From: Clostridiaceae bacterium
Lineage (GTDB): Bacteria > Bacillota > Clostridia > Oscillospirales > Acutalibacteraceae
DNA length: 37,510 nucleotides
Assembly: GCA_016290665.1 (NCBI GenBank)
Contig: JAEEUW010000012.1
Location: 1-37,510, forward strand
Reading direction: 5' to 3'
Shown: positions 3,478-20,800 of the stretch, piece after piece
Position numbering within the stretch: position 1 is the first letter of the stretch
Layout of the letters: each line of letters opens with the position of its first letter
Notes under the pieces: generated by a model
Database searches by the model: none
Seen by the model: the letters and a program-made list of their open reading frames with translations, nothing else
What the model was told of the DNA's origin: nothing
Translations under genes and position numbers: made by a program

Positions 3478-4113
3478 ATGCGCAACTATCAGAAGGAGCT
3501 GGACGCGATCATCGCGCGTCACAGCGAAAAAGGAGAGGTGCCGCGGCTGCTGCTGCACGCCTGCTGCGCCCCCTGCAGCAGCTATTGTCTGGAATATCTC
3601 TCGCAGTATTTTTCCATTACGCTGTTCTACTACAACCCGAATATCTACCCCGCGTCGGAATATACCCACCGGGTGGAGGAAGCGAAGCGGCTGGTGCGCG
3701 AGCTTCCGGCAAAGCACCCGATCACGTTTCTGGAGGGGATGTTCGACCCGCAGGCGTTCTATGACGCCGTGCAGGGTCTGGAAAACGAGCCCGAGGGCGG
3801 CGCGCGCTGCGAAAAGTGCTATCTGCTGCGGCTGAAAGAAGCGGGGAAACAGGCCAAAGCGGGCGGCTTCGATTACTTCACCACCACGCTTTCCATCAGT
3901 CCGCTCAAGAGCGCCGACAAGCTCAACCGCGCCGGAGAAGAAGCCGCTGTGGCGTGCGGCGTGCCGTTTCTCCCGTCGGATTTCAAAAAGAAAAACGGCT
4001 TCAAGCGCTCGATCGAGCTGTCGAAGGAATACGAGCTTTACCGCCAGAACTACTGCGGGTGTGTGTTCAGCCGGAAAGAAGTCAACAGCCAACAGTCAAC
4101 AGTTCACAGCTGA
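3478..4113 (+). CDS. queH: Epoxyqueuosine reductase QueH (DUF208 family)
   Basis: 'LLLHACCAPCSSYCLEYL', 'FYYNPNIYPASEYTHRVEE', 'GGARCEKCYLLRL', 'TTTLSISPLKSADKLN', 'QNYCGCVFS'. Last residues EVNSQQSTVHS are encoded by heptamer repeats. Confidence 0.92.
   Translation: MRNYQKELDAIIARHSEKGEVPRLLLHACCAPCSSYCLEYLSQYFSITLFYYNPNIYPASEYTHRVEEAKRLVRELPAKHPITFLEGMFDPQAFYDAVQGLENEPEGGARCEKCYLLRLKEAGKQAKAGGFDYFTTTLSISPLKSADKLNRAGEEAAVACGVPFLPSDFKKKNGFKRSIELSKEYELYRQNYCGCVFSRKEVNSQQSTVHS
4081..4108. repeat. Heptanucleotide tandem repeat, 4 units (gtcaaca gccaaca gtcaaca gttcaca), inside the 3' end of queH
   Basis: Direct reading, period exactly 7. Confidence 0.9.
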
Positions 4114-4189: not shown

Positions 4190-4202
4190 TCCAGACAGAA
4201 TA

Positions 4203-4283
4203 TTGCAGGGGTGCCACCGGCTGAGACCGCTTCACGCGGAACCCTTACACCTGATCCGGATCATACCGGCGTAGGGAGCGATG
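4203..4283 (+). promoter_or_regulatory. TPP (thiamine pyrophosphate) riboswitch, THI element
   Basis: Canonical core: 'aggggtgcc...ctgaga...cggaacccttacacctgatccggatcataccggcgtagggag'. Confidence 0.96.
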
Positions 4284-4284
4284 T

Positions 4285-4322
4285 AACGCCTTGTGATATC
4301 CAGATCACGGGCGTGTTTTTTT
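4285..4322 (+). terminator. Intrinsic terminator forming the riboswitch expression platform
   Basis: acgcc-ttgtgat...atcacgg-gcgt hairpin followed by a T run, between riboswitch core and the thiT RBS. Confidence 0.85.
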
Positions 4323-4347: not shown

Positions 4348-4986
4348 ATGTCAGAAAACAAACGGATTTCATCCACCCAGAAGCTCGCCGAATGCGCGAT
4401 CATGCTTGCGCTGTCTGTGCTGCTCAATGCGTTTCCCATCTATAAAATGCCGATGGGCGGCGACGTCACGCTGTTTTGCCAGCTGCCCATTGTTGTCATC
4501 AGCTACCGTCACGGCTTGCGTTGGGGGCTTTTGACCGGCTTTGCCATGGGTGTCATCCAGATGTTGTTCGGCCTTTCCAACTTCTCTTATGTGACCGGCA
4601 TCGTTGCGTATCTCGTAGTTGCGTGTGCCGATTATCTCATTGCATTCTCTTCGCTCGGCTTGGGTGGAATCTTCCGCGGGAAGATCAAGAATCAGGCTGC
4701 TGCGCTGGCGGCCGGCGGCGCGCTCGTTTCTGTTATCCGCTTTGTATGCCACTTTATTTCCGGTGTCACCGTGTGGGCCGATTACGCCAACGGAGCTAAG
4801 GCCGTTTGGATCTATTCGCTGGGTTATAACGGCACATATATGGCCGCCGAGCTGGTGCTGACTGTGATCGGCGCGCTGGCGCTCGGCTCGCTGATCGACT
4901 TCCGTTCCGCCCGGCTCCGCGGCCTGCGCCGCGGGGCAAAGGCTGTTGCCGACGAAACGGACGCAGACGCCGAAAACAACGAATAA
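4348..4986 (+). CDS. thiT: Energy-coupled thiamine transporter ThiT (ECF S component)
   Basis: 212 aa multi-TM; 'LAECAIMLALSVLLNAFPIYKMPMGGDVTLFCQLPI', 'RFVCHFISGVTVWADYA', 'YSLGYNGTYMAAELVL'; directly under a TPP riboswitch. Confidence 0.92.
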   Translation: MSENKRISSTQKLAECAIMLALSVLLNAFPIYKMPMGGDVTLFCQLPIVVISYRHGLRWGLLTGFAMGVIQMLFGLSNFSYVTGIVAYLVVACADYLIAFSSLGLGGIFRGKIKNQAAALAAGGALVSVIRFVCHFISGVTVWADYANGAKAVWIYSLGYNGTYMAAELVLTVIGALALGSLIDFRSARLRGLRRGAKAVADETDADAENNE

Positions 4987-5058: not shown

Positions 5059-7224
5059 TCAATCGTAGATGACGGCGCCGTTCGTCACAAGGCCGTAATC
5101 CACCACCGTGACGTCGGGTTCGCTTTCGCGTTCGGCATACTGCACGGTGCGGGTCTGCTGTTCGGTCTCCATCGAGAACTCGCGCACGTCCACGTCGCTG
5201 ACGGTGTAAACGCTGTCGCCGATGAAGGTGCCGCGGAACAGCCGGCTCAGGGCGTAGGCGTAGTTCGCGCCCTCCGTGCCGTGGACAAACGCTTTCATTT
5301 CGCCGAAGCGGTCGCCGTCCACGGTGAACCAGCGGAACACGGCTTTCGTGCCGACCCAGCAGTCGCTCTTGTCGAATACCGAATAGGTCACGGGGATCCC
5401 GAACGCGCCGTGCTGCGAATCGAACACAAACGCTTTCGGCTCAAACACCACGTCGGTGCCGGCCTGCTTGATCACGTGGCTGTCGGTCTCTCTGGGGTGC
5501 GTCGGGTCGCTGATGTCGAAGAGGGAGAGCTTCACGCTGTTGTAATCGGCGCTTTCGTCATCGCCGTTATAGCCGACGCCCAGCAGCAGCGTGCTCGTCA
5601 GCGGATGCAGATAGGCCGAGAAGCCGGGCAGCTTGACCTTGCCGAGAATCGCCGGCTTTGCCGGGTCTCTGAGGTCGATCGCGAACAGGGGATCGGTGTT
5701 GCGGAAGGTGACCACGTAGGCGAGGTCGCCCAGAAAGCGCGTGCTCTTGACCTGCTCGTCGGGGGCGAAGTCCGTGAGCTCGCCGACAATCATCAGCCGG
5801 CTGTCCAGCACATAGAGCGAGCTGACGTCCATATCGGTCTTGTAGTTGTAGTCGGTCGTGGTGATGCGCAGATAGCCGCCGCACTGGTCGATTGCGTAAT
5901 CGTCGCCCGCTTCGCCGGGCACCGCGCCGGTCGCCTTGAGCGTCACCGTGGCGCCGTCCAGCCCGAAGGCATAGATGTTCGTGCGGCAGTTGCCGTCGTC
6001 AGACACGTTCCAGTCGGTAGCAAGCAGATAGAGCGTGTCGGCGGAGCAGTACATCTCGCTGCTGTAGCCCAGCACGGACAGGCGGGTGGTTTCGGCGTCC
6101 TTCTTTGTCACGTCGAACGCGGAAAGCACCAGGTAGCTTGTGTCCTCCGCCTTTCTGTCGCGGATCAGGATTTCGTCGCTTGTCAGCGTCTTGCCGTCCA
6201 CGGCGGGGGCGTAGTTCTTTTCCACCGCTTCCTTGCTGTAGACGTTGACGTCATACTGCGTCACGGTATAGAGCACGTTCCCGATCATGCGGGTCTGCAG
6301 CAGGTTGCCGTCCTGGCGCAGCTCGCGCAGCAGCACCGGCTTTGCTTTGTCGGTGGTATCATAGATGAACTGCACGGTGCCGTTCGTTTCAAACCACGAA
6401 AGCCCGTCGTAATAATAGCCGCCCTTCGTATTCTTGCGGTCAAAGCGCTTGCGCTCCGCTGCCGTGAGGACCAGCCGGTTTTCCAGCACGTAGGCTTCCT
6501 GAAAATAATAGCTGCTCTCGTCGTCCTTCGGCTGCGGCTGCAAGACGCTCAGCTTCTGCATCGTCGTTGTGTCAATGATCGTCAGCGCGTCGCCGTTGGC
6601 GATATAGAGATAACGGCCGTCGTTTTTGAGGATATCCGCTTCGTCCACGTTTCCGTCGCGGGTGTTGGTCTGGCCGTAATTGCCGGCGGCGGCCCCGATT
6701 TCGGCGGCTGCGCGGGTGACGGCGTTCGCGTCGTTCACTGCCTGCGGCATGACGGCGTCAGACTCGAAATGCTCTTCGTCCACGGCATAGTCCGCGGCCT
6801 TGTTGACGACGCCGTTGAAGAAGATCCCCTTGCGGCGGATGGCGGCTTCGTCCTGATAGAGATTGCCGAAATACGCCTTGAGGTCGCTGTCGCTCTCGAA
6901 GCGCGAAAGCACCGGCGCCTTGAGCGTCCGCACGGGTTTGAGCTCGTTTTGCGGCTGTGTCTGAGTCGAAACCGGCGCGTCTGCGTTGACGATGGTGACC
7001 TGTTTGTGGATCGGCGGCAGCAGCGAGACGCTCGTGACGACGATGGCCACGGCGGCCGCGGCTGCAAGCACCTTGGGCAGCACGTGCTTTTTCTTTTTGA
7101 ATTGTTTGACGTTGTGTTCCCGGACCATGCTTTTCACATTTTCCGTTGAAAGGCTGTCGGGCAGCTCAATTTCTGCGCTGAACAGGGCTTTCAGGTCTTT
7201 GTCGTTTGGTTCGTTTCGTTTCAT
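5059..7224 (-). CDS. Membrane-anchored beta-propeller domain protein; candidate anti-sigma factor
   Basis: 721 aa; short cytosolic N-terminus, TM 'VLPKVLAAAAAVAIVVTSVSLL', then 'NVDEADILKNDGRYLYIANGDALTIIDT', a signature of the secreted beta-propeller family (PF09826-like); start overlaps the sigma stop by 4 nt. Confidence 0.82.
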   Translation of the reverse strand: MKRNEPNDKDLKALFSAEIELPDSLSTENVKSMVREHNVKQFKKKKHVLPKVLAAAAAVAIVVTSVSLLPPIHKQVTIVNADAPVSTQTQPQNELKPVRTLKAPVLSRFESDSDLKAYFGNLYQDEAAIRRKGIFFNGVVNKAADYAVDEEHFESDAVMPQAVNDANAVTRAAAEIGAAAGNYGQTNTRDGNVDEADILKNDGRYLYIANGDALTIIDTTTMQKLSVLQPQPKDDESSYYFQEAYVLENRLVLTAAERKRFDRKNTKGGYYYDGLSWFETNGTVQFIYDTTDKAKPVLLRELRQDGNLLQTRMIGNVLYTVTQYDVNVYSKEAVEKNYAPAVDGKTLTSDEILIRDRKAEDTSYLVLSAFDVTKKDAETTRLSVLGYSSEMYCSADTLYLLATDWNVSDDGNCRTNIYAFGLDGATVTLKATGAVPGEAGDDYAIDQCGGYLRITTTDYNYKTDMDVSSLYVLDSRLMIVGELTDFAPDEQVKSTRFLGDLAYVVTFRNTDPLFAIDLRDPAKPAILGKVKLPGFSAYLHPLTSTLLLGVGYNGDDESADYNSVKLSLFDISDPTHPRETDSHVIKQAGTDVVFEPKAFVFDSQHGAFGIPVTYSVFDKSDCWVGTKAVFRWFTVDGDRFGEMKAFVHGTEGANYAYALSRLFRGTFIGDSVYTVSDVDVREFSMETEQQTRTVQYAERESEPDVTVVDYGLVTNGAVIYD

Positions 7225-7757
7225 GATTGTTCGTCTCCTTCACGAAGCATGGCGCGCAGGGTGTCCTTCGTCCGCGAAAGGCGCGAACGGACGGTGCCGC
7301 TTTTGCTGCCGGTCATCTCCGCCAGTTCCTTGCTGTTGTAGCCGAACAGCACGGAAAGCAGCAGCAGCTCGCGGTCGGCGTCCGGCAGCTGCCGCAGCGC
7401 CATGTGCAGCGCCGCGTGCGACGCCGGGTCGCTTTCCTGCCCCAGCAGACGGCAGCAGTCTTCAATGTCAAGAAGCTGTGTCTGCAGGGCTTTTTCGCGC
7501 TGCTTCCGGCGGCAGCAGTTGAGCAGAATGGAAAAGAACCAGCTGCGCACACTTTGGGCTTTTTTCAGTTGTCGAATGTTCTGGAACGCGAGCAGCACAC
7601 AGTCGCTGACCGCGTCCTCCGCGAGATGGGGCGACGACGTCTGGTAATACGCAAAGCGGAACAGGTCGTGCCGAAGGTCGGCATACAGCTCGCCGAACGC
7701 GTCCGCGTCGCCTGCCTGTGCGCGGCGCACAAGCGTTTTTTGGTCTTCCGGTTTCAT
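7221..7757 (-). CDS. RNA polymerase sigma factor, sigma-70 family (ECF-type)
   Basis: 178 aa; region 2 'FGELYADLRHDLFRFAYYQTSSPHLAEDAVSDCVLLAFQNI', region 4 'DADRELLLLSVLFGYNSKELAEMTGSKSGTVRSRLSRTKDTLRAML'. Confidence 0.92.
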   Translation of the reverse strand: MKPEDQKTLVRRAQAGDADAFGELYADLRHDLFRFAYYQTSSPHLAEDAVSDCVLLAFQNIRQLKKAQSVRSWFFSILLNCCRRKQREKALQTQLLDIEDCCRLLGQESDPASHAALHMALRQLPDADRELLLLSVLFGYNSKELAEMTGSKSGTVRSRLSRTKDTLRAMLREGDEQS

Positions 7758-7779: not shown

Positions 7780-7809
7780 TTAGATGGAAAAAAGCCGCAA
7801 AGTGTTGCA
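7780..7809 (-). promoter_or_regulatory. Putative ECF-type autoregulatory promoter of the sigma gene
   Basis: Minus strand TGCAAC - 17 nt - CATCTAA; AAC-type -35 and CGTC-like -10 typical of ECF promoters (inference). Confidence 0.45.
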
Positions 7810-7835
7810 CGGGAAAGGAAACTTTTTTCAAAAAC

Positions 7836-7865
7836 AGTATAGCACGTGTTTCAGTCGACAGTCAA
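7836..7865 (-). promoter_or_regulatory. Putative sigmaA-type promoter whose -35 lies in the heptamer array
   Basis: Minus strand TTGACT (7860-7865) - 18 nt - TATACT (7836-7841). Confidence 0.5.
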
Positions 7866-7930
7866 CAGTAGACAGTCAACAGTAGACAGTCAACAGTAGA
7901 CAGTCAACAGTCGACAGGGAACAGGGAACA
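7854..7930. repeat. Heptanucleotide tandem repeat, 11 uninterrupted units
   Basis: gtcgaca gtcaaca gtagaca gtcaaca gtagaca gtcaaca gtagaca gtcaaca gtcgaca gggaaca gggaaca. Confidence 0.97.
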
Positions 7931-7940
7931 GGGATGGATG

Positions 7941-7970
7941 AAAAAGACTCCCCTCCGAACAGGAGAGGAG
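7941..7970 (-). terminator. Intrinsic terminator downstream of the DHHW gene
   Basis: Minus: CTCCTCTCC-tgttc-GGAGGGGAG then TCTTTTT. Confidence 0.75.
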
Positions 7971-8001
7971 CGATTTAAAATCAAGCGGCCGGTTCCCGCG
8001 T

Positions 8002-9192
8002 TCAGCTCGCCAGCACGCCCGCCAAAGACTTGTCGGCCAGGAACGTGTTGAGATTATAGACGAACAGAATGTGCGTGAAGTCGTTGTCGTCCGTGATGTT
8101 CTGCAGGGAATCGCTGAAGTAGCGCGGATCGATGATGACGATCTTGGAAAAATAGGGGGTCAGCATCGGAATCAGGCAGTTGGCGTAGGAGTCCTTGAAC
8201 AGCAGCAGCGTGTCCTCGGTCTGCGAAAGCGTCTGAATCACGATCTTGTCGAAGTTGCCGCCGAGGAAGACCTCATACTGGTTCTTCTGGTCGAGCTTTG
8301 TTCTGTCGAACACGCTGGGCGCCGTTTTGTTCTGCGATTCATAGTGGACCGCATAGGTGCCCTCGCTCTTGTTCGGAATGCAGACCTTCAGCACGTCGCG
8401 GAGCTTCCGGTCGCCGTAGGACGCGGCCAGCGTGCCGGAGAACCGGTCGGAGACCGCCGCCACGGTAAAATGCTTCTCCTTTGCGCCGAGCTCCCATTTG
8501 CCGCTCAGCGCCAGAAAGGCGCGCAGGGCGGCGTCGGTCGTCCAGTGGTGGTCGGTGCGGTAATAGAGCGTGGTCGGATCCTCGACCTTTTCATAGCTCT
8601 TGAGCACGCTGATCCAGCTGAACTTTTCGCCCGAAAGCTTTGCCTTCACCTGCGAAAGCTGCGCCTTCTGGTCGTCCATTCTGATATGATAGGGGAGATA
8701 CTTTTTCAGCACGTAACTGCTGTTCGGCGCCAGAATCATGGCGGCCTGCGCGTGGCGGTGCTGCCCGAGGAAGTCGTTGATCGCGTCGGTCGTTTTCTGC
8801 AGCAGCTCTTCGTTCAGCGGGGTCTGGCGTTCAAACAGAAAGCCGCGCCTGCCCAGCAGCACGCCGTTCTCTTCGCGGCGGCCGGTCAGCGTTGCAAAAA
8901 AGCTGTGCATCGAAATCAGACCGTCGCGGCCCGGGAACTGGTCGGTCAGATAGGTCTCGTATTTTTTCATGAAGCTGCCGTCGGCAACGGCGGAGAGGGT
9001 CAGCTTCGGCTTTTGCTGCAGCGTGCGGTTCTCGTTTTCCGACATGGCTTTGTCGGGAACGACAAGGAACAGGAACGCGTGCAGCGCCAAAAACGCCGCG
9101 AACGCGACGCAGATGCAAAGGCAGACCAGCGTTGTCAGACTGCGCTTTTCCGCCTTGGGCGTGTTGGAATCGGGAGCTGTCGGTCGTTTCAT
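8002..9192 (-). CDS. DHHW-family (AlgX/AlgJ-like) secreted protein
   Basis: 396 aa; N-terminal TM, 'SENENRTLQQKPKLT', 'YYRTDHHWTTDAALRAFLAL', 'LLLFKDSYANCLIPMLTPYF'. Confidence 0.85.
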   Translation of the reverse strand: MKRPTAPDSNTPKAEKRSLTTLVCLCICVAFAAFLALHAFLFLVVPDKAMSENENRTLQQKPKLTLSAVADGSFMKKYETYLTDQFPGRDGLISMHSFFATLTGRREENGVLLGRRGFLFERQTPLNEELLQKTTDAINDFLGQHRHAQAAMILAPNSSYVLKKYLPYHIRMDDQKAQLSQVKAKLSGEKFSWISVLKSYEKVEDPTTLYYRTDHHWTTDAALRAFLALSGKWELGAKEKHFTVAAVSDRFSGTLAASYGDRKLRDVLKVCIPNKSEGTYAVHYESQNKTAPSVFDRTKLDQKNQYEVFLGGNFDKIVIQTLSQTEDTLLLFKDSYANCLIPMLTPYFSKIVIIDPRYFSDSLQNITDDNDFTHILFVYNLNTFLADKSLAGVLAS

Positions 9193-9203: not shown

Positions 9204-10619
9204 TTAAAATCTGAAATAGAGGAACGGGTTATAGGTGTCGCTGACGAGGCTGACCACGCACAGCGCAAGCACGGCGGCATAGCCGACGGCCTGCAGGGCC
9301 AGACGCACGTTGGCGTTGCGCAGCTTGGGGAATTTGCGGAAATAGCCGAGGGCGCTGCAGGTCATCACGGCGAACGGGAAGAGGTTCGACATCAGCAGAT
9401 ACCAGGTGTCGCCGTCCCAAAGGCCGCCGAAGCCCACCATGGCGCCGAGATACTTCGCCGCGCCGCCGAAGGTTTCGGCCGAGAAGAAGACCCAGCCGAC
9501 GATGACGATGAGCATCGTGAGCACGCGCCGCGCCCAGAGCGGCAGCTTTTCAACAAGGCTGCCGAAGACGTACTTTTCAAGAATCAGCAGCACGCCGTAG
9601 TAGGCGCCCCAGGCCACGAAGTTCCACGCCGCGCCGTGCCACAGGCCGGTCAGCGACCAGACGATCAGCAAATTGACGATCGTGCGGGCCGTGCCCTTGC
9701 GGTTGCCGCCCAGCGGGATATAGACGTAGTCGCGGAACCAGGCGGACAGCGAGATGTGCCAGCGGCTCCAGAAGTCCTTGATGGACGAGGCGGTGTAGGG
9801 GAAGTTGAAGTTCTGCACGAAGTCGAAGCCGAACATCTTGCCCAGACCGATCGCCATGTCGGAATAGCCCGAGAAGTCGAAATAAATCTGCAGGGTGTAG
9901 CAGAGAATGCCGAACCACGCGGTCACAAGGCCCAGCGAAGAGACGTCGCGCGCCGTGATTTCGGTATAGACCGCGCCGATGGTGTTGGCGAACAGCACCT
10001 TTTTGCCCAGACCGCGCACAAAGAACAGCACGCCCGCCGAGAATTTGCGAATGCCGATCCGCCGGCCCGTCAGCTGGCGTTCGATATCGCCGTACTGCAC
10101 GATGGGGCCGGCAATCAGCTGCGGGAACATGGTGATGTAGGTCGCAAACGACAGCAGGCTCCTTTGCGCGCGGCACTTGCCGCGATAGACGTCAATCACA
10201 TAGGAAAGGATCTGGAAGGTATAGAACGAAATGCCGATCGGCAGCGAAATGTTCGCCGCCTTGATCTCCATGGAAAACAGGCGGTTGAGGTTGTCCACCG
10301 CAAAGGGATAATATTTGAAAAAGCCCAGCACGAACAGGTTGAACACCACGGCGCAGACAAAGACCGTTTTGCGCCTTTTCGGGTTGCGCACCGGCGTTTG
10401 CAGATCCAGGCCGATATTATAGTTGAAATAGATGCTGATCAGCATCAGCAGAATATAGACCGGCTCGCCCCACGCATAGAACACGAGGCTGGCCAGACAG
10501 AGCACGGCGTTTTTCTTGGTGATTTCCAGCTTCGGCTCGTGCCGGAAGAACGGCACAAAATAGAAGAGCAGAACGACCGGAAGAAACACAAACAGGAAGG
10601 TTGCGCTGCTGAATAACAT
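9204..10619 (-). CDS. MBOAT-family O-acyltransferase (AlgI-like)
   Basis: 471 aa; 'MLFSSATFLFVFLPVVLLFYF', 'IDFYRG'-like 'VIDVYRGK', 'FDFSGYSDMAIGLGKMFGF', 'FPYTASSIKDFWSRWHISLSAWFRDYVYIPLGGNRKG', 'GLWHGAAWNFVAWG'. Confidence 0.95.
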   Translation of the reverse strand: MLFSSATFLFVFLPVVLLFYFVPFFRHEPKLEITKKNAVLCLASLVFYAWGEPVYILLMLISIYFNYNIGLDLQTPVRNPKRRKTVFVCAVVFNLFVLGFFKYYPFAVDNLNRLFSMEIKAANISLPIGISFYTFQILSYVIDVYRGKCRAQRSLLSFATYITMFPQLIAGPIVQYGDIERQLTGRRIGIRKFSAGVLFFVRGLGKKVLFANTIGAVYTEITARDVSSLGLVTAWFGILCYTLQIYFDFSGYSDMAIGLGKMFGFDFVQNFNFPYTASSIKDFWSRWHISLSAWFRDYVYIPLGGNRKGTARTIVNLLIVWSLTGLWHGAAWNFVAWGAYYGVLLILEKYVFGSLVEKLPLWARRVLTMLIVIVGWVFFSAETFGGAAKYLGAMVGFGGLWDGDTWYLLMSNLFPFAVMTCSALGYFRKFPKLRNANVRLALQAVGYAAVLALCVVSLVSDTYNPFLYFRF

Positions 10620-17807: not shown

Positions 17808-20800
17808 ATGAAACTGACGAAGAAAGCACTCTGTATCTTTCTTGCCGTTCTGATGCTGCTGTCCTGCGCGGCAGTCAGTGCGTCGGCCTATTCCAGAATC
17901 CAGAATACCGACGCTTATCTGGCAAAGACAGGCGAGACTGTCGACATGATCGCTTTTTACAAAGCCAACCGCTACGGCGCCAGCGGCGCCAACCAGTTTT
18001 ACAACCTGAAAACCGTTACGATCACCGACAAGGGCGACACCTACGCCAGCGTCAGCGGCACGAAGGTCAAGTTCCCGCAGGGCGGCAAGGCCGTCGTCAA
18101 GCTCAACGCGCAGTACATCGTTGCCAAAACCGGAAAGATCGTGGACGACGTTGTCTCCTATACCTTCTACGTTTCCAGCGGCAGCGATTACATCCTGATC
18201 TTCGAGCCGAACGGCGGCTCGGGTAAGGCCGCCGTCTATTCCGGCAACGCAACGGTGCTTGCCGGCTATCAGCCGAAGTATACGCGTTCGGGCTATACGC
18301 TGGACGGCTGGACCAGAACGCCGACGGGCCAGATGGAGTTCACCGGCAACATTTCGGCCTCCAAAAGCATCCCGGTGGTGCTCTATGCCCACTGGAAGCC
18401 CAACACCTACACGTTGTCGTTCAACGCCAACGGCGGCTCGGTGTCTCCGGCCAGCAAGAGCGTGACCTACGGCAGCACCTTCGGCACGCTGCCCACGCCG
18501 ACCCGCGCCGGCTACAGGTTTGACGGCTGGTACGGCACGGCCACCGGCGGCGGCCAGTTCACCTCGTCCAGCCTCTATTCGTTCCCGCAGAACCTGACGA
18601 TTTTCGCCCACTGGACCAAGCTGACCGAAATCAAGTCCGTTGACATCACGGGCGTGGTTGCGCCGGTTGTCGGTGCTGCGCCCGTGAAAACAGGCTATAA
18701 GATTTCTTCCAACGTGACGGTGAAATTGTTCAACTGGACCAACAAGATCGGCGGCGGCAACTATGCCACGACGACCGATGCAACCTTCCAGGACGGAAAG
18801 GATTACGCCGTTTCGTTCCAGCTTACGCCGAACGATGGCTACGCCTTTGCCGCGGCGGGCAGCATGAAAGCAACCGTGAACGGAAAAACCGCAATGTTCA
18901 CCAATCCGCAGCAGGGCGTCTACTATGTCAGATATGTGTTCGGCGCCCCGGCCAAAACCGTCTCCTCCGTGATGATTACCGGCGTGAGCGAGCCGACCTA
19001 CGGCGGCAAGGTGACAACGTCGGGCATCAAGGCGTCTGCCGGCTTTGAAATCACCAACTCCTACTGGACCAAAAAGCAGAGCAACGGCACCTATCAGACC
19101 ACGACCGATACCACCTTCCAGCGCGGCGGGGAATACGGCCTGAATATTTCGGGCAAGATCGCGTCCGGCTATGTGGTGTCCGGCACGCTGAGCATCTCGG
19201 TCGGCAGCAAGAAGGCCACTGTGAAGCACAACGGGGGCGAATACTATGCCGCTTCCTGCTATTATAATCCGGTGACGCAGAGCGTCTGGGTGACCTTCGA
19301 TCCCGACGGCGGCACGCTTGCGGCTTCCGAAAAGACCAAAATCGTCACCGTCGGCTCCGCCTACGGCGCGCTGCCGACGCCGACCAAGAGCGGCCTGTCG
19401 TTCGACGGCTGGTATGACGGCAGCACGAAAATCACCTCGACCTCCAAGGTTCAGCGGACCGAAAACCACACCTTGAAAGCGCACTGGAAAGACAAGATGC
19501 CCACCAACGTGGCCGTCACCTTCGACCCGAACGGCGGCACGATCGGCGACGCGCAAAAAACCAAGATCGTCACCGTCGGCAACCCCTACGGCGCGCTGCC
19601 GGTTCCGACCCGCACGGGCTACACGTTTGAGGGCTGGTTCAACGCCGCCAATAATCAGATTACGGCTGCCACCACCGTCACGGTCAGCTCGAACCACACC
19701 CTGACCGCCAAATGGAAAAAGGTTGAGCCGAAAACCGTTACCGTCACGTTCGACGCGACGCCCGGCCTTGTGGGCGAGCACAGCAAGACGGTCACCGTCG
19801 GCGAAAAATACGGCCTGCTGCCCATCGCGTCGCGCGGGGGCTACAAGTTCCTGGGCTGGTATGACGACGCCGACGTGCACATCACGAGCGTGTCCGTCGT
19901 TGAAAAAACGACCGACCACACGCTGAAGGCGAAATGGGAAAGCACGGCCGCCCCGCACACCGAGCACACCTACGACGCGGGGACGGTGACCAAGGATCCC
20001 ACCTGCACCGCAGTGGGCGAAAAGACGTTTACCTGCACGGTCTGCGGCGCGACGAAGACCGAGGAAATTCCCATGAAGCCGCATACCTTTGACGCGGGCA
20101 CGGTAATCAAAGAAGCCACCTGCACCGCCACGGGCGAAAAGACCCTCAAATGCACCGTCTGCGGCCTGACGAAGACCGAAGTGATCCCCAAGGCGCCCCA
20201 CACCTACACCGACGCCGTTGTGACGAAGGAAGCCACCTGCACCGCCACCGGCGAAAAGAGCTTCACCTGCACGGTCTGCGGCGGCAGCTATGTGGAAGTG
20301 ATTCCCATGACGGGCCACAGCTTTGTTGAAAGCACCACGCCCGCCACGCTCAAGAAGAGCGGCGAAGTGGTCGGCACCTGCAGCGTCTGCGGCGAAACGC
20401 AGCAGCTCGCGGTCATCTATCGTCCGAAGACCTACACGCTCTCTGCCAACAGGTTCACCTACAACGGCAAGGCGAAGACGCCCTCGGTGACCGTGACCGA
20501 CGCCAAGGGCAATCTCATCGAGCCCGAAAGCTACGAGCTGACCTATGCGAACAACAAGGACGTCGGCGTCGCCAAGGTGAAGATCACCTTCAAGGGCGAC
20601 TACAGCGGCACGAAGACGGTGAAGTTTAAGATCCTGCCGAAGAAGACCGGGCTCAAAAAGCTGACCGCCGGCAACGGCGCGTTCAAGGCCGTCTGGAAGG
20701 AGATCAAATCCGGCGACGGCTATCAGCTCCAATACGCGACCAATAAGAGCTTCAAGAACGCCAAGACCGTGACGATCAACGATTCCACCGTGACGGCAAA

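Follow-up and report, generated by a model that had tools for sequence, protein, structure and literature searches.

A heptamer array beside the predicted promoters of an ECF sigma-factor operon is probably an ordinary spacer repeat

Introduction

In cyanobacteria, STRR arrays are built from units such as CAACAGT. Heptamers are a common class of long simple-sequence repeats (LSSRs) in bacteria and are mostly intergenic (PMC4679880, PMC4692102); examples include the TAACTGA arrays of Beggiatoaceae, most of them just before start codons (PMC4679880), and the GGGAATC arrays of Xanthomonas and Nostoc (PMC4692102). In Haemophilus influenzae, heptamer number changes the expression of hmw1A. A heptamer overlaps the -35 box of promoter P1, which was inactive under the conditions tested, and the length effect ran through P2, a promoter on the far side that transcribes the repeat (PMC8262952). 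Regarding ECF sigma factors, Tt-RpoE1/Tt-TolB of Thermoanaerobacter tengcongensis form an operon of an ECF sigma factor and a membrane anti-sigma factor, whose promoter arrangement has been shown (PMC3397946).

Here, we analyzed a heptamer array upstream of an ECF sigma-factor gene in a 37,510-nucleotide stretch of DNA (the window) from a Clostridiaceae bacterium. The source assembly is a draft MAG with a completeness of 85%, and our species comparisons use one genome per species. The array shares with heptameric LSSRs and STRRs a 7-bp unit, many intergenic copies, mixed variants and a patchy distribution among relatives, and its GTCAACA unit is a circular shift of CAACAGT. Unlike the known heptameric LSSRs, it belongs to a rumen-type Ruminococcaceae lineage and has the units GTYRACA and GGGRACA.

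Results

The array in the window

Read base by base, the array comprises 11 seven-base units (7854-7930), nine GTNNACA (7854-7916) and two GGGAACA (7917-7930), followed by GGGA (Table 1). From 7854, the order is GTCGACA, GTCAACA and GTAGACA in alternation (7861-7909), GTCGACA at 7910 and GGGAACA twice; the GTCAACA/GTAGACA alternation has a permutation P of 0.009. Tandem Repeats Finder recovers the array with period 7/14, and lag-7 scoring places the tandem 7-bp unit beyond chance (window best = 25; 60 Markov shuffles, 10 or less). The minus strand holds four TTGACT copies (7860-7865, 7874-7879, 7888-7893 and 7902-7907), 14 bp apart.

A sequence-only reading of this DNA had described the 11 units and the 14-bp gtcaaca/gtagaca alternation correctly to the base. 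The coordinates bear out its four TTGAC copies at 14-bp spacing, as well as its TTGACT exactly 18 nt from TATACT (7860-7865 and 7836-7841, minus strand). It also placed the TTGACT copy nearest the gene rightly, but the gene-nearest unit is GTCGACA, with the -35 box at the edge of the second unit. Rfam showed no known RNA element at the array, and a phage or plasmid origin was rejected, as no match was found.

Table 1. Features of the window and of related loci (positions in the window unless a locus is named).
Feature	Position	Strand	Remark
TTGACT, predicted -35 box, inside the array	7860..7865	-	TTGACG at equal spacing in array-less G015
TATACT, predicted extended -10 (TGC before)	7836..7841	-	kept in G012 and G015
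Nine GTNNACA heptamers, 14-bp higher-order unit	7854..7916	.	
Second heptamer type, GGGAACA x2 + GGGA	7917..7934	.	unit shared with the many other GGGRACA arrays of the genome
Intrinsic-terminator-like hairpin with T run, downstream of DHHW gene	7947..7971	-	array starts 12 bp past the stem
DHHW/AlgX-like gene, upstream of the array	8002..9192	-	
MBOAT gene, further upstream than the DHHW gene	9204-10619		
Second, short heptamer array, same family as the window array	4080..4103	+	3' end of queH
ECF sigma-factor gene (Sigma70_r2 + Sigma70_r4_2)	7221..7757	-	
Beta-propeller protein gene (PF09826)	5059..7224	-	overlaps sigma stop codon; hydrophobic segment near N-terminus
TGCAACA, -35 of conserved ECF-type promoter (predicted)	7803..7809	-	
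CATCTA, -10 of conserved ECF-type promoter (predicted)	7781..7786	-	
~270-bp elements with inverted heptamer ends, conserved boundaries	L144:9972-10240, 267-538, 18485-18753; L146:5777-6065, 6778-7044; L118:2508-2765		

The array at the end of queH (4080-4113) encodes the last residues of the protein, NSQQSTVHS, and is followed by a GC-rich terminator-like hairpin. A TPP riboswitch (4197-4294) precedes the gene for a thiamine transporter (Thia_YuaJ, 4348-4986).

Heptamer arrays across the genome and genus

The pattern (ACAGNNN)2ACAG has 118 matches in the genome, against nine for the mirrored pattern. The array units of the genome include a GGGRACA and a GTYRACA group, many dispersed copies have related units, and the 14-bp alternation is also found in other arrays. 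Several congeners (e.g., G018, G028 and G019) carry the pattern frequently and others do not, while a longer form of it is rare in the rest of the order (nine of 147 genomes). Among periods of 4-24, period 7 is the commonest tandem repeat in all seven genus members sampled.

The array counts that follow were taken from sampled stretches. Crude gene calls place 33 of the 43 sampled arrays between genes, when ~13% of the sequence is non-coding, and a terminator-like hairpin lies within 45 bp of 14 of the 43, compared to 10% of random intergenic positions. Thus, arrays here are often beside terminators, whereas those of Beggiatoaceae are mostly before start codons (PMC4679880). None of the other sampled TTGAC-bearing arrays has a -10 above 4/6, and we rejected the array as a general supplier of promoters on this ground.

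It should be noted that several arrays, in L068, L072, L075, L076, L080, L082 and L083, are no more than a few hundred bases from a contig end; such repeats probably interrupt the assembly and are under-counted. G018 (L126:1857-2189) has a densely packed group of CAGGGGA heptamer arrays in which whole blocks recur as direct repeats; with its GGG-N4 spacing, this cluster could form G-quadruplexes.

A predicted sigma-70-type promoter at the array edge

A promoter scan returned one sigma-70-like site, TTGACT-18-TATACT, when 0.1 would be expected from shuffles. Its predicted -10 is preceded by TG, making it an extended -10, a feature absent from the earlier reading. The best candidate wholly inside the array, TTGACT-15-TCTACT, has a -10 of 4/6 and was rejected as too weak.

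We then took the orthologues of the sigma gene from congeners and compared their upstream regions. In G015, the orthologous region has TTGACG-18-TGTGCTATACT (promoter score 10/12) and the array is absent. In G012, TTGCCA-18-TATGCTATACT (10/12) lies beside GTGCACT heptamers and CTCTTGCC octamers, both unrelated to the window array. In G001, the -10 is missing and ATTCCGA heptamers are present. Alignment showed an 18-nt spacer and an extended -10 common to three species, with different sequence upstream of the -35 in each. The site thus has what is expected of a sigma-70 promoter, namely -35/-10 hexamers (10/12) at a spacing of 16-18 nt (here 18) that are kept in relatives (three species). Since it is also present in array-less G015 and beside unrelated repeats in G012, the predicted promoter predates the array or does not need it. 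The promoter that had been read at the array edge is supported by its conservation in the two nearest -10-bearing relatives, but its supply by the array is not supported, as G015 is array-less. The -35 falls within repeats in two species, where repeats could therefore be favoured, a point that counts against a near-neutral reading of the array.

The predicted ECF-type promoter of the operon

The stress-type sigma gene carries sigma regions 2 and 4 only, as autoregulated ECF factors do. Its closest named matches are in two MAGs, Ruminococcaceae RUG13829 and the goat-rumen Clostridia RGIG3704. By analogy with Tt-TolB, the PF09826 propeller encoded after the sigma factor is likely a membrane anti-sigma factor; a search for an anti-sigma partner via solved-structure sequences gave no match. 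Upstream of the sigma gene, GCAACA-16/17-C(A/G)TCTA precedes GAACGGATGTGAT and the start codon. Its strict form is present in 26 of 30 orthologues, including the window gene, and in 0.2% of shuffles. Three of the other four orthologues show by eye a recognisable variant.

Within the family, an AAC-type -35 beside an ECF sigma gene points to autoregulation. The conserved AAC-type -35 found before this gene itself suggests that GCAACA-16/17-C(A/G)TCTA is most likely an autoregulatory promoter, a related layout having been demonstrated for Tt-RpoE1 (PMC3397946), and we infer that it is bound by the neighbouring sigma factor. It is this ECF-type element, separate from the sigma-70-type one at the array edge, that is conserved across the genus. 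In the genome, the pattern matches the operon and one other site; as the mirrored control gives more matches, we make no claim of a regulon. A weak terminator-like hairpin (window 7795-7812, minus strand) overlaps the ECF -35 box and could act as an attenuator of transcription from the sigma-70-type promoter upstream.

As in Tt-RpoE1/Tt-TolB (PMC3397946), an ECF sigma gene with its own promoter upstream is followed by a gene for a large membrane protein. The promoters differ (TGTTAC-18-TCTATA in Tt-RpoE1, GCAACA-16-C(A/G)TCTA here), as do the partners, a TolB domain in Tt-TolB and here a PF09826 propeller whose anti-sigma role is putative.

Effect of changes in array length

In computed edits, every in-register deletion or duplication of 14 or 28 bp keeps TTGACT 18 nt from TATACT, and TTGACT is replaced only by some changes of 7 or 21 bp. 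Because neighbouring units differ, 14-bp slippage would be the more likely event. Therefore, of two features expected of a phase-variable promoter, the array has one, a repeat that overlaps a promoter element (the predicted -35). It lacks the other, an altered promoter geometry or transcribed leader upon gain or loss of units: changes of 14 and 28 bp are neutral, and the two predicted promoters are both on its gene-proximal side. The sequence upstream may have a modest effect on the predicted promoter.

Dispersed elements with heptamer ends

In G001, 12 of 13 arrays are paired in inverted orientation at a distance of about 235-340 bp. The paired arrays enclose a related body, whose boundaries are a GCGCCGC...GCGGCGATGCGCC hairpin and ACCCGCGACCGC. 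Full-length elements of this kind, ~270 bp long and heptamer-ended, are numerous in G001 and G010, and matches to the body or an end were found in 25 of 34 genus members, G000 included. The boundaries are conserved, the ends and body variable. The elements match no Rfam family, and by eye we found no consistent target-site duplication.

Discussion

Our analysis points to the array in the window as a single copy of a heptameric simple-sequence repeat that is dispersed in the genome. The array occupies the spacer that separates the predicted promoters of the ECF-sigma/beta-propeller operon from the DHHW gene and its terminator, and would be near-neutral in effect; to this reading we give a probability of roughly 0.7 on the sequence comparisons above. 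It would thus probably be an ordinary spacer repeat and not a genetic switch, best assigned to a kind already known in bacteria, the heptameric simple-sequence repeats. In a plausible history, slippage or unequal exchange extended the array in 7/14-bp units until it met the -35 box; there, selection on the older promoter, TTGAC-18-TGC-TATACT, would have halted its growth. The sigma-70-type promoter would provide basal transcription of the operon and the GCAACA-16-CATCTA promoter sigma-dependent autoregulation, the array itself being most likely near-neutral.

One alternative is a contingency locus, in which changes in array length would tune transcription of the ECF sigma factor, as (ATCTTTC)n does at hmw1A. 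The likeness, which counts against the near-neutral reading, is that in both cases the last heptamer of the array overlaps a -35 box, and slippage is plausible given the many short units. However, the active promoter of hmw1A is on the far side and transcribes the repeat (PMC8262952), whereas here both predicted promoters are gene-proximal, the far side holds a terminator and the promoter scan gave no second sigma-70 promoter there. In addition, 14-bp gains and losses leave the -35/-10 geometry unaltered, which disfavours a simple length switch, and orthologous sites do without the array. We consider such a locus unlikely, and the proposal of the sequence-only reading that expansion or contraction retunes or phase-varies sigma-factor transcription is unsupported, given the promoter left intact by 14/28-bp edits and the array-less G015. 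Its other proposal, a protein-binding ladder, fares worse. Four identical TTGACT copies at 14-bp spacing, in an alternation that permutation makes improbable by chance, might suggest binding sites for a regulator, or -35 decoys for RNA polymerase, that control the sigma operon. Yet comparable alternation is present in arrays with other units elsewhere in the genome, the orthologous loci have no such array, and steps of 14 bp would be 1.33 helical turns, so that successive copies would leave one helix face; we regard a ladder as highly improbable.

Another explanation starts from the dispersed elements: the array could be the solo end of a heptamer-ended, MITE-like element that lost its body after insertion. 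The paired arrays of G001, the element matches across the genus and an inverted heptamer pair in G012 at the same intergenic region argue for it. On the other hand, within 500 bp of the window array there is no inverted partner, its flanks are not similar to those of other arrays, and the inverted-partner test pairs only three of the 36 arrays in G000. Having found neither partner nor shared flank, we do not claim that the window array belongs to an element, and its origin as a solo end seems improbable. Somewhat less doubtful, but still tentative, is the broader idea that the heptamer arrays of the genus arose as the inverted ends of an undescribed ~270-bp element with ACCCGCGACCGC and GCGCCGC-hairpin boundaries, or were captured by these ends; solo arrays, including that of the window, would be remnants, and a mobile element, not slippage alone, would spread the heptamers.

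With the spacer-repeat reading preferred, this locus is a case in which a repeat seems to build a promoter although the promoter would be older than the repeat, and G000, G012, G015 and G001 together make a clean comparative test. If it is true that heptamer arrays are the ends of elements, this would bear on the spread of heptamer repeats in bacterial genomes.
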